The position numbers and the translations under genes were made by a program. The notes under the pieces are model-generated. The model was not told the DNA's origin. It was given only the letters and a program-made list of their open reading frames with translations, and did not search any database. From Kangiella sp. TOML190 (GTDB lineage: Bacteria > Pseudomonadota > Gammaproteobacteria > Enterobacterales > Kangiellaceae), in NCBI RefSeq assembly GCF_023706045.1, contig NZ_BQYL01000001.1, positions 682,001 to 746,000 of the forward strand: a stretch of DNA of 64,000 nucleotides. The letters are read 5' to 3'. Positions 967-38,383 of the stretch are shown in pieces; the stretch's first letter is position 1, and each line of letters starts with the position of its first letter.

Positions 967-1287
967 TCACGGCATCATTCTTTCGCCCAAATTACCCATT
1001 ACCCACAAGCTACCAAAGATCATCACAATCACCATAAAAGATGCTAAAAATAAGGCGATCCTGGCTTCGATAGGCACTCTATCGGTGGTGTAGTGAAGGA
1101 AAAACCTTAACTGCACCACTACTTGGATAATCGCCATAACGGTGATTACGGTGACCGTTGCAAAATAACCCACATCGTCTCCATGAGACGCTACGGTAAA
1201 AGGAATAACGGTTAAAATCACCGCCAAAATAAAGCCATAAATATAATCTGTTAAATGCGGTTTTCTTAGGTGTACTGGTTTCATCAT
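967..1287 (-). CDS. cyoD: Cytochrome bo3 ubiquinol oxidase subunit IV
   Basis: A small (106 aa) subunit with three predicted membrane helices of the cytochrome o oxidase subunit IV family; it assists assembly of the heme-copper centre of the bo3 quinol oxidase. The start overlaps the cyoC stop as ATGA; a second ATG follows at once, so the start may be one codon later. AGGA lies about 6-9 bases upstream. Earlier in-frame codons would extend it into cyoC and lack support. It is the last gene of cyoABCD. No heme O synthase gene (cyoE) follows, although it does in many relatives. Confidence 0.93.
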   Translation of the reverse strand: MMKPVHLRKPHLTDYIYGFILAVILTVIPFTVASHGDDVGYFATVTVITVMAIIQVVVQLRFFLHYTTDRVPIEARIALFLASFMVIVMIFGSLWVMGNLGERMMP

Positions 1288-1925
1288 AAAATTCCTGGCA
1301 AGTAGACAATAGAAAAGATCCCGATCCAAATAAGATCAAGGAAGTGCCAAAATAAACCGACTCGATACAGTCGCGACAATACTGGTTCAGTTAGCCCTTT
1401 GCTCAACATCTGCGCTGCAATTACGGCTAACATAATAAGACCGAACAAGACATGCAAACCGTGGGTTGCTACTAGCGCAAAGAAAGAGGACAGGAAGCCA
1501 CTGCGCTGCGGGCCATGGCCATCATCAATTAACTCTTTAAACTCAAGTAGCTCGAGCACAATAAAGCCCGCGCCTAAAATAAAGGTTACCACCAACCAAA
1601 TCAGCGCTAGATTTCGTTTTCCCGATAAAGCGCTTATGGTAATCATGCCAAAAGTGAAACTTGAGAGTAGTAATAACGCGGTTTCTTGCGCGGCGCGGCC
1701 AATTTCAAAAATTTCATTTGCTCTTGGCCCGTCGGCGACACCATTAATCAAAACTTCATAATTGGCAAACAAGAGAGCGAAAATAATGGAGTCACTCATC
1801 AAGTAAAACCAAAAACCCAGTGCGCGCTCGCCATGCTTGGCATTACTAGCAGGAGTACCCAAATTACCCATTGGGTGCTCTTTATCTTCTATCTCCTGAG
1901 CGTTGCTTGCGGTAATTTCTGTCAT
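1284..1925 (-). CDS. cyoC: Cytochrome bo3 ubiquinol oxidase subunit III
   Basis: A 213-aa membrane protein of the heme-copper oxidase subunit III family with about five hydrophobic segments. The segment ALGFWFYLMSDSIIFALLF near the N-terminus and HFLDLIWIGIFSIVYLPGIL at the C-terminus are typical of CyoC. It is part of the proton-pumping quinol oxidase in the inner membrane and carries no redox centre itself. The start is supported by AAGGAG seven bases upstream, and the gene overlaps the cyoB stop by four bases, so translation of the two is probably coupled. Its stop overlaps the cyoD start in the same way. Confidence 0.96.
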   Translation of the reverse strand: MTEITASNAQEIEDKEHPMGNLGTPASNAKHGERALGFWFYLMSDSIIFALLFANYEVLINGVADGPRANEIFEIGRAAQETALLLLSSFTFGMITISALSGKRNLALIWLVVTFILGAGFIVLELLEFKELIDDGHGPQRSGFLSSFFALVATHGLHVLFGLIMLAVIAAQMLSKGLTEPVLSRLYRVGLFWHFLDLIWIGIFSIVYLPGIL

Positions 1926-31632: not shown

Positions 31633-32268
31633 ATGCCATTACCTTTTCATTTGGCGCAAGATGAGACTATTCTCAGCTTTTTAGATAATTGTCAGAGAAG
31701 GCGCTTTCCGGCAAAAAGCACCTTGATCTATGCTGGTGATTCGTCCAACACCTTATATTTCTTGCTCGAAGGCTCGGTTTCAGTCCTCATAGAAGACGAT
31801 GAAGGACGCGAATTAGTCTTGGCTTACCTTAACCCAGGCGACTTTTTTGGCGAAATGGGACTCTTTTCCGACGAACATGACCGCACCGCTTGGGTGCGCA
31901 CCAAAACTGAATGTGAAGTGGCTGAAATCAGTTATGAACGTTTCCGTCAGGTATTTAAAGAAAACCCTGATATTTTATTTAAATTATCTACCCAATTGGC
32001 GACACGTTTGCGTAAAACCAGTCGCAAGGTTGGAGACTTAGCATTCCTTGATGTTACTGGACGCGTAGCCCACGCCTTATTGGAATTGGCCAAAGAGCCT
32101 GATGCTATGACTCACCCGGATGGCATGCAAATCAAAATTACCCGCCAAGAACTCAGCCGCATTGTCGGTTGTTCACGGGAAATGGTTGGACGGGTGTTGA
32201 AAGCACTGGAAGAACAAGGTCATATTCATGTTAAGGGTAAGACTATGGTGATTTTTGGAGCTAGATGA
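31633..32268 (+). CDS. crp: cAMP-activated global regulator CRP (Vfr-like)
   Basis: A 211-aa CRP homologue. The N-terminal cyclic-nucleotide domain holds the cAMP-binding stretch FFGEMGLF plus the nearby Arg in DRTAWVR; a long dimerisation helix contains [23 protein letters not shown]; the C-terminal helix-turn-helix is [20 protein letters not shown], nearly identical to E. coli CRP, so the TGTGA-type target is expected. AAGGAAC is six bases before the ATG. It terminates at a strong hairpin 90 bp beyond the stop. Confidence 0.96.
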
Positions 32269-32575: not shown

Positions 32576-33520
32576 TTACCCGTTTAAGAAATTTCGCAAG
32601 ATTTGGTGTCCATACTCAGAAAGAATCGATTCGGGATGGAATTGAACGCCTTGCATCGCTAATTGCTTATGCCGAATACCCATAATGTACTCTAATTCAC
32701 CCGTATCATCTTGCGTCCAAGCAGTCACTTCAAATTCACTTGGTAAAGTATCAGCTTTGACAATCAGGGAATGATAGCGGGTGGCTTTGAACGGATTAGG
32801 CAGCCCGGTAAAGACGCCTTTGCCAGTATGGTAAATATCGGAAGCTTTTCCATGCATGACCTTTTCAGCTTTGCGCACCTCGCCGCCATAAGCCTGCGCC
32901 ATGGCTTGGTGCCCTAAACAAACTCCAAAGATTGGCTTTTTAGACCCGAAGTGAGCTATCACTTCTAGCGAAAGCCCCGATTCATAAGGAGTGCACGGAC
33001 CGGGTGAAATAACAATATAGTCAGGATCTAAAGCCTCGATTTGTTCAATAGTCACTTCATCATTGCGCTTAACAATAATCTCTAAAGCCGTTTGTTGGTA
33101 TGATCCTTGTGCCATTTCAAGACCAACTTCACCAAAATACTGCACCAAGTTATAGGTAAAAGAGTCATAATTATCGATCATCAAGAGGCGCTTTTTTACT
33201 TTAGAATCCGCTTTCTCGTCGGGCATAGCCAATTTTCTTTTTAGGCTTTGCTCAAACTCTACTGGGGTTTTCACAATTCCCAAGACCAAGCTACCAATTG
33301 CCGCCACTGCACTAAACAACCAGAGCAAAAATAAAGGAATATGATTAGCGACAAAACTTTGCGAATCTTGATAATTTTCCTTAAAAGAGCAAAAGTCCGT
33401 TTGATAATTAAAGCTGCCGCCTTGGTCAAGGCACTGATCAATGGCCGATTGGTCATTGAAATAATGAGCTGCCAGGCCAAAGCTCATTACCACCGCTAGC
33501 AACCATACGACCTTTCTCAT
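32576..33520 (-). CDS. Membrane-domain fusion of TrpG/PabA-type glutamine amidotransferase
   Basis: A single 314-codon frame. Residues 112-314 are a complete component II of anthranilate/aminodeoxychorismate synthase: [27 protein letters not shown], catalytic Cys201 in FGVCLGHQ, and His294/Glu296 in VQFHPES. Residues 1-98 form a different module: a hydrophobic helix (3-19), a short loop with [15 protein letters not shown], and a second helix (60-83). No ribosome site precedes the internal ATGs at 33226 and 33181, so an unfused product is not favoured, though the MRKVV start is weak too. It probably provides ammonia for folate (PabA) or tryptophan synthesis; it follows rpe by 22 bp. Confidence 0.85.
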
Positions 33521-33542: not shown

Positions 33543-34214
33543 CTAACAGCGGGCCTTAGCGTTTTGCTTCATCTGGCTAATGGTCGCTTGATAATCGTCG
33601 GTATTGAAAATCGCGGAACCCGCAACAAAAGTATCAACACCACAAGCGGCAATCTCGCCAATATTGTCGATTTTTACCCCGCCATCAATCTCCAAGCGAA
33701 TGTCATAGCCCGACTCATCGATCAATTGGCGTACTTGCTTGGCCTTTTCCAAAGTCGAAGGGATAAACTTCTGACCACCGAAACCTGGGTTGACCGACAT
33801 GAGCAAAATCAGATCCAATTTATCCATCACATAATCCAAGCAATCCAAGGAAGTCGCGGGATTGAGCACAATTCCGGCCTTACAGCCTAATTCGCGGATC
33901 ATGCTTAACGAACGATCCAAGTGGTCGCTCGCCTCTGGATGAAACGAAATATAGGTGGCACCTGCTTTAGCAAAGTCAGGAATGATTCGATCTACCGGCT
34001 TGACCATTAAATGCACATCAATTGGCGCTGTAATGCCATAGTCGCGCAACGCCTGACAGACCATAGGGCCAATGGTTAAATTTGGTACATAATGATTATC
34101 CATCACATCAAAATGCACCCAATCGGCGCCGGCTTGCAACACATTTTCGACTTCTTGACCCAAACGCGCAAAGTCTGCAGATAAAATCGACGGAGCTATG
34201 ACCAAATCTTTCAT
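33543..34214 (-). CDS. rpe: Ribulose-phosphate 3-epimerase
   Basis: Interconverts ribulose 5-phosphate and xylulose 5-phosphate in the pentose phosphate pathway. The 223-aa TIM barrel shows [25 protein letters not shown] (metal ligands), [25 protein letters not shown] and LEIDGGVK, all family signatures. Normal length. It begins a short transcription unit with the amidotransferase fusion downstream, a remnant of the rpe-(gph)-trpE-trpG order known from other Gammaproteobacteria. Confidence 0.97.
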
Positions 34215-35544: not shown

Positions 35545-37107
35545 ATGTTTTGCCAGCTTGATCAGATCCTAACGCAAACTGCTTCGCAGTTTCCCGACAA
35601 AATTGGGTTGGATGACAATAAAAAGTCCTTCTCATATCAGCAACTTGAACAAGAAGTGTCCAAGTTGGCTACTTATTTTTTAACTCTAGGACTACAAAAA
35701 GGTAGCCGCATCGGGATCTATTTGCCAAAACAAGTGGAAGCGGTTATCGCTACATTCGCGGCCAGTCGCGCAGCCTTGGTGTTTGTCCCTATCAACCCTT
35801 TATTAAAACCGCACCAAGTCAGCTATATTGTGCAAGACTGCGACATCGAGCTGCTGATCACTTCGGGCCCACGCGCTAATCAGCTGAACGGGATCTATAA
35901 AGAGACTACTAGTCTTAAAAGGCTGTTGCTGGTCGATGATCGGGTTAAAGATCCATTGGATATTCAGCATGAGCTTTGGCCACAACAAGCCCCAGAACAA
36001 AGTTCGTATGCTCCAGAGATCATCGATCAAGATCTGGCAGCAATTCTCTATACCTCAGGCTCGACTGGCAACCCCAAAGGGGTGTGTCTTTCTCACCGTA
36101 ATTTAATCGCGGGCGCGCAAAGTGTCAGCCATTATTTAGAAAACACTCACCAGGATATTGTACTGGCAGTTTTGCCGCTAAGCTTTGATTACGGATTAAG
36201 CCAAGTCACCACAGCAATCTTAAGCGGGGCAAAAGTGGTGCTGATGGAGTATTTACTCCCTCGCGACGTGATACGACAGGTAGAAAAGCATCAAGTGACG
36301 GGATTGGCGGCAGTCCCCCCTTTATGGTTCCAATTAGCGCAGTTGGAGTGGCCGCAAAGTGCTAAGCAATCTTTGCGTTACATTACTAACAGCGGTGGTG
36401 CCATGCCAAAAGCAACCTTGCAAAACCTGCGTCAGCAGCTACCTAAGACCAAACCGTTTCTGATGTACGGTTTAACCGAAGCTTTTCGCTCGACTTATCT
36501 CGATCCATCGGAAATTGACAGGCGCCCTGATTCGATTGGCAAAGCCATTCCCAACGCACAGATTTTGATTTGCCGCCCCGATGGCAGCGAGTGCGAAGCT
36601 GATGAGGTTGGCGAATTAGTTCATCGCGGAGTCCACGTTAGTTTAGGCTATTGGAACGCGCCACAAAAAACCGCTAGCCGCTTTAAACCGATTGGCCAAC
36701 ATTCGAAATACCTAGCCGAACTGGCGGTCTGGTCAGGCGATCAAGCGAAAAAAGATGCTCAGGGTTTTATCTATTTTATTGGCCGCGCCGACGATATGAT
36801 AAAATCATCAGGTTATCGCATTAGCCCCAGTGAAGTAGAAGACACAGTATTTTTGCTCAACGGGATCAAAGAAGTGGCTGCTTTGGGGGTTAATGACGAG
36901 CAGCTTGGTCAAGCAGTAGCTTTAATTGTAAAAGCTGATGACGCGCTAACCAACGAACAGATTAAAAAATATTGCCTGAAACAGCTACCCAATTTTATGC
37001 AACCGAAATATATTGAACGAGTCGAACAGTTACCGCGCAACCCTAATGGTAAAATTGATCGATCACAACTTAAAAGCTTGTATCAAAGCTTGGCGAATCA
37101 GCCGTAA
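35545..37107 (+). CDS. Acyl-CoA ligase (AMP-forming), exosortase A-associated type
   Basis: A 520-aa ANL-superfamily enzyme. The P-loop motif is LYTSGSTGNPKG (about 170-181), then MYGLTEAFRSTYLDP for A5, WSGDQAKKDAQGFIYFIGRADDMIKSSGYRISPSEVE for the hinge and C-terminal domain, and the catalytic Lys in NPNGKIDRS. Overall sequence and the immediate downstream decarboxylase match the pair found in exosortase-A (EPS/PEP-CTERM) loci. It would adenylate a carboxylic acid and load it onto CoA or a carrier. Family assignment is from memory of that pairing; substrate unknown. It ends 28 bp before the decarboxylase gene. Confidence 0.85.
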   Translation: MFCQLDQILTQTASQFPDKIGLDDNKKSFSYQQLEQEVSKLATYFLTLGLQKGSRIGIYLPKQVEAVIATFAASRAALVFVPINPLLKPHQVSYIVQDCDIELLITSGPRANQLNGIYKETTSLKRLLLVDDRVKDPLDIQHELWPQQAPEQSSYAPEIIDQDLAAILYTSGSTGNPKGVCLSHRNLIAGAQSVSHYLENTHQDIVLAVLPLSFDYGLSQVTTAILSGAKVVLMEYLLPRDVIRQVEKHQVTGLAAVPPLWFQLAQLEWPQSAKQSLRYITNSGGAMPKATLQNLRQQLPKTKPFLMYGLTEAFRSTYLDPSEIDRRPDSIGKAIPNAQILICRPDGSECEADEVGELVHRGVHVSLGYWNAPQKTASRFKPIGQHSKYLAELAVWSGDQAKKDAQGFIYFIGRADDMIKSSGYRISPSEVEDTVFLLNGIKEVAALGVNDEQLGQAVALIVKADDALTNEQIKKYCLKQLPNFMQPKYIERVEQLPRNPNGKIDRSQLKSLYQSLANQP

Positions 37108-37135
37108 GCTTAAACAACCGTGACCCATAACGATT

Positions 37136-38383
37136 ATGACTAAAAAGAAAGCCATTGTTCACACTGCCATGGATCAGTTTTCCAGCCTTGATGGAGAATT
37201 AGCTGTAGAGGGTAAAACCTTAAGCCAGATTGCGCAAATGGCTGGACAGACACCTTTTTATCTTTATAGCAAAAGCGTTGTTCGGGCTAATATTGAGCGG
37301 CTGAGAAAGCACTTTCCGAAGCTAAGCTTACATTACGCCATCAAAGCCAATCCGATGCCACAACTGGTGTCTTATGTGGCTGAGTTAGTGGATGGTTTGG
37401 ATGTGGCCTCTGGTAAAGAGTTGCTCCTAGCGCTGGCAACCGAAACCAGCAATGACAATATCAGTTTCGCAGGCCCCGGCAAAAATCTTACCGAATTGCA
37501 GATGGCGATTGCCAGTGGTATCACTATCAACATTGAGTCGCTAACGGAGCTTGAGCGGATTGTGACGCTTGCTCAAGAACAAAATACCCATGCCAATATC
37601 GCTATTCGGATTAATCCTGATTTTGAGTTAAAGTCCTCGGGCATGAAAATGGGCGGCGGCTCACAACAGTTTGGCATTGACGTGGAGCAACTTGATCCCC
37701 TATTCGCACTACTGCAAAATCCAAGCCTTCGACTCACTGGTTTGCATATTTTCACCGGCTCGCAAAATCTTAATCCGAACGCAATCATCAGTGCTCACAA
37801 TAATATTTTTGCGCTAGTAGAGCGCCTACAAAAACAATACCAATTCTCATTAGAGCATTTAAATATTGGTGGTGGCTTTGGCATACCTTACTTTCCTGGC
37901 GACGAGCATTTAGCGCTCGCGTCGATTGCCGATAATCTTGACCAGTTGTTCGAACAATACGCAAAGCTAGTGAAAAACTGCGAAATTATTTTAGAACTGG
38001 GGCGTTATATTGTTGGCAATGCTGGCTTGTATGTTGCCGAAGTTACCGATATTAAAGTGTCTCGCGGTAAAAAATATCTGATCACTAATGGTGGTTTGCA
38101 CCATCATTTAGCAGCCTCTGGTAACTTTGGTCAGGTTATTCGTAAAAACTATCCCGTAGCCATTGGCAATAAAATACCTTCACAAAACCAAAACAGCGAT
38201 AGTGAAGAAGTTACCATCGTCGGGCCTTTATGCACTCCTCTGGATTTGCTGGGGCATAAGATGTTGCTACCCACTGCTGAAATTGGCGACTTGGTAGTTA
38301 TTTATCAATCTGGCGCATACGGTTTTAGCGCTAGTCCGCGGGACTTTTTGTCGCATCAAGAACCCGTAGAATTACTTTTATAG
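37136..38383 (+). CDS. PLP-dependent decarboxylase, exosortase A-associated type
   Basis: A 415-aa fold-type III (alanine racemase/LysA-like) enzyme. The PLP Lys is in LSLHYAIKANPMPQL (about residue 69); HIFTGSQNL, NIGGGFGIPYFPG, LELGRYIVG and the active-site GPLCTPLD follow. The N-terminal HTAMDQFSSLDGELAVEGKTL matches the version found beside exosortase-A systems rather than classical diaminopimelate decarboxylase, and supports the start at 37136. It probably decarboxylates an amino acid for a surface polymer or lipid. It forms a unit with the acyl-CoA ligase and perhaps plsB, which starts ten bases later. Confidence 0.85.
   Translation: MTKKKAIVHTAMDQFSSLDGELAVEGKTLSQIAQMAGQTPFYLYSKSVVRANIERLRKHFPKLSLHYAIKANPMPQLVSYVAELVDGLDVASGKELLLALATETSNDNISFAGPGKNLTELQMAIASGITINIESLTELERIVTLAQEQNTHANIAIRINPDFELKSSGMKMGGGSQQFGIDVEQLDPLFALLQNPSLRLTGLHIFTGSQNLNPNAIISAHNNIFALVERLQKQYQFSLEHLNIGGGFGIPYFPGDEHLALASIADNLDQLFEQYAKLVKNCEIILELGRYIVGNAGLYVAEVTDIKVSRGKKYLITNGGLHHHLAASGNFGQVIRKNYPVAIGNKIPSQNQNSDSEEVTIVGPLCTPLDLLGHKMLLPTAEIGDLVVIYQSGAYGFSASPRDFLSHQEPVELLL

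Follow-up and report, generated by a model that had tools for sequence, protein, structure and literature searches.

PabA in free and fused forms

PabA is the glutaminase subunit of aminodeoxychorismate synthase and supplies ammonia for the folate precursor PABA. Its amidotransferase can form part of a longer chain, as in the fused aminodeoxychorismate synthase of Streptomyces venezuelae (8HX6), where it spans residues 18-200 of a 702-residue chain whose partner is not a membrane module; going by the PDB title, this partner is the synthase half. In Escherichia coli, PabA (8RP0, 8RP1, 8RP2; PMC7617670) is a soluble protein of about 188 residues. That paper describes a salt bridge between Arg30 of PabA and PabB, an expansion of the PabA-PabB subunit interface upon glutamine binding, and strain at Cys54 of PabA upon glutamine binding. 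The literature searched, which leaves out most subscription journals, yielded no description of a PabA or TrpG tethered to the membrane.

The protein considered here is encoded in a 64,000-nucleotide stretch of DNA from Kangiella sp. TOML190, here called the window. It shares with E. coli PabA a whole amidotransferase domain with the catalytic triad and the KRND motif, and with the Streptomyces chain the placement of this domain within a longer polypeptide, but differs from both in possessing an N-terminal membrane module. The gene lies on the minus strand, begins with an ATG at 33520, and ends at 32576, stop codon included, encoding 314 amino acids in a single frame; the plus-strand reading of this segment contains 13 stops. 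Its parts and neighbors are:

32576..33520, minus strand: fusion gene of the membrane module and the amidotransferase (most likely PabA), 314 aa; single open frame, same fusion in 19/20 genus genomes
33455..33511, minus strand: predicted transmembrane helix 1, residues 4-22; hydropathy peak 1.63, model helix 2-32
33341..33454, minus strand: loop, residues 23-60, predicted periplasmic; more acidic than basic in 19/19, model strands 36-38 and 43-45
33431-33433, minus strand: Cys30, in the loop; conserved in 19/19
33389-33391, minus strand: Cys44, in the loop; conserved in 19/19
33275..33340, minus strand: predicted transmembrane helix 2, about residues 61-82; hydropathy peak 2.39 at 65-83, model helix 61-79
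33191..33274, minus strand: basic linker, residues 83-110, of varying length among species, from the alignment and charge counts; pLDDT below 50 at 99-106
32582..33190, minus strand: class-I glutamine amidotransferase domain (most likely PabA), residues 111-313; Pfam, NCBIfam, and PDB sequence and structure matches
33543..34214, minus strand: rpe, ribulose-phosphate 3-epimerase, 22 bases upstream of the fusion; TIGR01163 over cut-off
31633..32268, plus strand: crp-type regulator, convergent, downstream of the fusion; NF008732 over cut-off

An earlier note, made from the letters of this DNA, had described an intact TrpG/PabA domain with catalytic Cys, His, and Glu, read in the same frame after about 110 residues that contain two hydrophobic helices and a loop with a conserved-looking cysteine pair. 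This description was borne out. The domain scores over the cut-offs of Pfam GATase (PF00117; residues 113-312, 194.6 bits vs. 22.8) and TIGR00566 (residues 112-313, 268.8 bits vs. 121.05). Cys201, His295, and Glu297 are present in the window protein and at the aligned sites of all 19 fused proteins of the genus, and the cysteine pair of the loop is kept in every one of them.

Several positions of the enzyme domain vary among the fused proteins. Tyr179 of the window protein (CTPYESG; 32984-32986) is Asn or Asp in the other 18. An insert of 10-13 residues precedes the KRND motif in 6 of the 19 (L001-L005 and L007; residues 134-149, 33074-33121 in the window) and lies near the residue that, according to the E. 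coli study, contacts PabB. Five fused proteins (L009-L013) have GPATP, with Ala replacing the Cys of GPCTP. Elsewhere in the window, at 35545-38383, an acyl-CoA ligase (TIGR03098) and a PLP-dependent decarboxylase (TIGR03099) both exceed the cut-offs of exosortase-A-associated families. By our own residue count, the Cys of GPCTP is presumably Cys54 of E. coli PabA.

Conservation within Kangiella

The protein search covered 61 genomes: that of TOML190, 19 other Kangiella genomes, 17 at the family level, and 24 at the order level. The fusion is present in one open frame, with no stop, in 19 of the 20 Kangiella genomes. The sole exception (G002) is 55% complete and shows only the second TrpG-like match, which is found in all 20 genomes, and a more distant one. 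A scan of named contigs returned 36 pattern matches and led to 12 confirmed loci, all from Kangiella and overlapping with the assemblies of the genus set. The stretch after helix 2 ranges from 9 to 30 residues among the 19 fused proteins, and its length changes are always in frame.

Selection was assessed by computing 171 pairs; reported here are the 24 whose amidotransferase sequences diverge least at synonymous sites, and dS of the module was estimable in 12 of these. Seven close pairs, in some of which dS approaches saturation, put the dN/dS of the module at 0.027-0.116; the other five estimable pairs, four of which involve L007, put it at 0.275-0.535. The module of L007 is divergent, retaining the cysteines, lacking CLD-x-GG, and conserving little else. 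Across all pairs, nonsynonymous change is about twice as fast in the module as in the enzyme (mean pN 0.33 vs. 0.16). By these sequence measures, the module is maintained as a protein, though under looser constraint, and close pairs show purifying selection on it.

An error of sequencing or assembly that joins two genes was rejected as an explanation, and its probability is close to nil: nineteen assemblies share the same join in an open frame without a stop, the length changes are in frame, and the module shows purifying selection. The earlier note had also considered a stop or frameshift between module and domain, which occurs in none of the 19 fused genomes, and a fusion missing from all relatives with an internal start in use; what was found is conservation across the genus, with the ancestral PabA start gone in 19/19. 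By these comparisons, the fusion is real, conserved, unusual, and, within the sample, confined to Kangiella.

Identity of the amidotransferase domain

The genome of TOML190 encodes two chorismate-binding enzymes. One exceeds a TrpE cut-off (PRK13564, 578 vs. 471) and is located at 2.27 Mb beside trpG2 and trpD, with trpG2 between trpE and trpD in a trpE-trpG-trpD cluster. The other exceeds the PabB cut-off (TIGR00553, 339 vs. 328.4) and is located at 1.842 Mb, away from the trp cluster; PabC is also over its cut-off in this genome. A search with the fused protein yielded four matches in the genome. One is the protein itself and another the trp-cluster protein (42% identity), and these are the only TrpG/PabA-type proteins; the remaining two are amidotransferase domains of longer frames and more distantly related. 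No other PabA candidate was found by this search. The fusion lies beside neither trpE nor trpD, its neighbors being rpe and crp. Given this trpG in the trp cluster and the pabB elsewhere, both separate from the fusion, the fused domain is most likely PabA rather than TrpG. The class given in the earlier note, a component II amidotransferase of TrpG/PabA type, therefore holds and can be narrowed to PabA.

Structural comparison points in the same direction. The best Foldseek match of the model is E. coli PabA (8RP2; target-normalized TM 0.95, 59% identity), whereas TrpG chains show 34-44%; the closest solved structures are 8RP2/8RP0 and 6QUR by structure, and 6QUR and 8RP0 by sequence. The Arg of KRND, present in 19/19 fused proteins, aligns with Arg30 of E. 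coli PabA by our own count from the sequence alignment. All four PabA-type equivalog cut-offs of NCBIfam were missed (PRK06774, 283/340; PRK08857, 283/345; PRK07649, 282.1/327; PRK08007, 270.8/332 bits), which counts against the assignment; the insert and lineage divergence may be responsible.

An identity as TrpG was rejected in view of the separate trpG in the trp cluster. A wider form of the idea, in which the domain works with anthranilate synthase besides or in place of PabB, as a dual-use or TrpG subunit, could draw on TIGR00566, which covers both functions without separating them, and on a gene position that may descend from a dual-use trpG: 2 of the 11 unfused matches (L020 and L028) adjoin trpD. 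We regard it as quite unlikely, given the position of trpG2 between trpE and trpD, the second TrpG-like match in 20/20 genus genomes, and the closer resemblance to PabA in structure and sequence.

Predicted topology of the membrane module

Hydropathy peaks at residues 4-22 (mean 1.63) and 65-83 (mean 2.39); the value for helix 1 counts against a tether. In 19/19 fused proteins, the N-terminus carries two basic residues and no acidic one, acidic residues outnumber basic ones in the loop, and basic residues outnumber acidic ones past helix 2. Under the positive-inside rule, basic flanks stay cytoplasmic. Because of this rule and the charge pattern, the module is predicted to adopt an N-in/C-in orientation, with the cysteines in the periplasm and the enzyme in the cytoplasm. 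The AlphaFold model of the fused protein (mean pLDDT 81.2, pTM 0.63, 33 sequences) has a helix at 2-32, strands at 36-38 and 43-45, helices at 61-79 and 86-98, and a region of low confidence at 99-106. Hydropathy, the charge pattern (19/19), and the model agree on two predicted helices in the N-in/C-in arrangement. The module would accordingly be inserted in the membrane, and Cys30 and Cys44 probably form a disulfide.

Translation start

Ten of the 11 unfused relatives (L020-L030) have ATG as the codon aligned with Met1 of PabA, and L030 has CGT. At this position the fusions have AAG, AAA, CGT, CGC, or CGG (Lys or Arg) in 19/19, and ATG in none. The only internal start-type codon kept in all 19 is the Met of LLM, which lies inside the first strand, three residues past the old start, and could serve as an internal start. 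In 12 of the 19 genomes, no internal codon matches the ribosome-site pairing of the first Met, and in one there is a tie; in the remaining six (L001, L002, L003, L004, L007, and L011), which include the window's gene with its weak pairing at the first Met (+0.4), an internal start-type codon scores better. The start-codon comparison and the pairing across the 19 fusions together make a free PabA from an internal start unlikely.

These data bear on the reading that one frame gives two products, with PabA freed by proteolysis of the linker or by an internal start, no lasting tether, and the module acting as a separate small membrane protein. The six genomes with better internal pairing are in its favor, as are the linker, which varies in length and is modeled with low confidence, and the related small proteins that stand alone elsewhere. 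The loss of the ancestral start in every fusion, the lack of a shared internal start-type codon other than the Met in the first strand, and the preference for the first Met in most genomes speak against it; moreover, helix 2 and the domain lie only 9-10 residues apart in seven species, leaving little room for a cleavage site. We consider this reading improbable, though it deserves some weight, and retain a lasting tether as the preferred one.

Related modules in other proteins

No Pfam family came over its cut-off for the module, either in the whole-protein search or among six families tested. Its features, a hydrophobic helix followed by CLD-x-GG and by a second Cys about 14 residues on, were found outside Kangiella. 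C30, L31, and C44 are invariant in two alignments of 12 and 18 chosen rows, with L007 outside both. Among 394 order-level genomes, a model of the module matched in 36, of which 18 belong to Kangiella and 18 do not. Twelve of the 18 matches outside the genus were read, G237, G255, G272, and G324 being outside this set, and all 12 carry the motif in frames of about 50-115 aa. The match in G189, a 356-aa frame, was rejected, as by eye it has the look of a UbiA-type prenyltransferase and probably reflects hydrophobic similarity. Stand-alone proteins with two helices that align with the whole module include L069 (94 aa), L070 (89 aa), and L077 (91 aa).

A broader module model matched in 9 of 369 class genomes, that of TOML190 counted; among the class-level loci beyond its own, 7 of 9 have the motif in the frames examined, and L085 and L089 do not. 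A motif model matched in 14 of 398 phylum genomes, again with its own counted. Twelve phylum- and family-level loci were read: L123 is without the motif in the frame examined, L128 is without the first Cys, and in L114 the second Cys lies much further on; L115-L117 fall outside this reading, their genomes being already covered. Overall, the motif is located near position 1501 in loci L069-L080, L082-L084, L086-L088, L090, L118-L122, and L124-L127. In the form CLD-x-GG-[SR]-[FWY]...C, it directly follows a membrane helix or a lipobox in small proteins of many families. L114 and L090, from two distant genomes, represent a longer multi-helix family with a similar N-terminal part and CLDSGG near the C-terminus.

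The small membrane proteins with D-x-CLD-x-GG-[SR]-[FWY]...C thus resemble the Kangiella module in having a hydrophobic helix, then the motif and a second Cys, but they are encoded by separate genes. In L124 (G051; 1069-1644, minus strand of the locus), the motif is again fused to an enzyme: a helix and CLDSGGRW...C are joined to a YkuD L,D-transpeptidase domain (68.5 bits vs. cut-off 23.4). In contrast to the Kangiella protein, it has one helix only, and because of this its enzyme would face the periplasm.

Another reading is a periplasmic sensor, in which the amidotransferase is informed by the Cys pair of the redox or wall state of the envelope, and PABA synthesis is tuned in this way. Cys30 and Cys44 are invariant in 19/19 fused proteins and in the related module proteins, and L124 joins the same motif to an L,D-transpeptidase. 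The flexible linker of variable length would however be a poor lever for signaling, and the disulfide may be purely structural; we hold a sensor to be very unlikely. The module is better seen as an anchor.

Neighborhood and origin of the fusion

rpe is upstream in all 19 fused loci, and crp is present in 18, the exception being on a 4-kb contig. The gap between rpe and the fusion is roughly 700 bases in several species (e.g., L008 and L042). In other genera of the family, pabA is found beside rpe without the module. The 11 unfused pabA loci, with short flanks, were covered by chosen neighbor proteins and genome-wide module searches. rpe is upstream in six of them (L022, L023, L025, L026, L027, and L030), two of which (L026 and L027) also have crp. 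The comparison with relatives proposed in the earlier note thus shows pabA without the module in family members outside the genus.

In the order search, the 17 listed genomes from other genera of the family gave no module match at E 0.01. With a shorter motif model and E 0.05, matches came from 2 of 20 such genomes, L114 (G027) and G034, and the motif was read in L114, a longer membrane protein with CLDSGGEF and a second Cys far off. Because these searches showed no fused module in other family genomes, the fusion is, as judged from sequence, confined to Kangiella within the sample.

The earlier note had proposed that a former separate gene was fused. Stand-alone module-like proteins in other families of the order agree with this, although none was found beside an unfused pabA in the 12 stand-alone module loci read by eye. 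A plausible course is that a small membrane-protein gene landed between rpe and pabA in an ancestor of the genus and was joined to pabA in frame; loss of the pabA start would then have locked the fusion in. A neutral fusion fixed in this manner explains the data without any benefit.

A possible membrane-tethered PabA

Taken together, the gene is likely a pabA that became joined, in the ancestor of Kangiella, to a two-helix membrane protein; this would keep PabA, and PabB through it, on the cytoplasmic side of the inner membrane. The N-terminus and the amidotransferase would lie in the cytoplasm, with helix 1, the periplasmic Cys30-Cys44 loop, and helix 2 forming the anchor, and the basic linker of variable length might let the domain dock onto soluble PabB. 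The tethered PabA would work with PabB as in E. coli, and chorismate would receive the ammonia of glutamine in the ordinary way, only at the surface of the inner membrane. The enzyme domain itself is ordinary. A bolder proposal, in which the folate precursor is made at the inner membrane by PabB recruited to the tethered PabA while the Cys-pair loop lets the envelope state tune aminodeoxychorismate synthesis, is very doubtful.

If the likely reading holds, one genus has built a subunit of a core pathway, elsewhere normally soluble, into an apparent inner-membrane protein, and the loss of the old start codon probably leaves the cell only the tethered form. Kangiella may thus offer a natural test of whether a two-subunit amidotransferase that is dynamically joined in E. 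coli can work from the membrane. A further point of interest is the unnamed membrane module with its Cys pair, which turns up both in small proteins and in fusions to enzymes.
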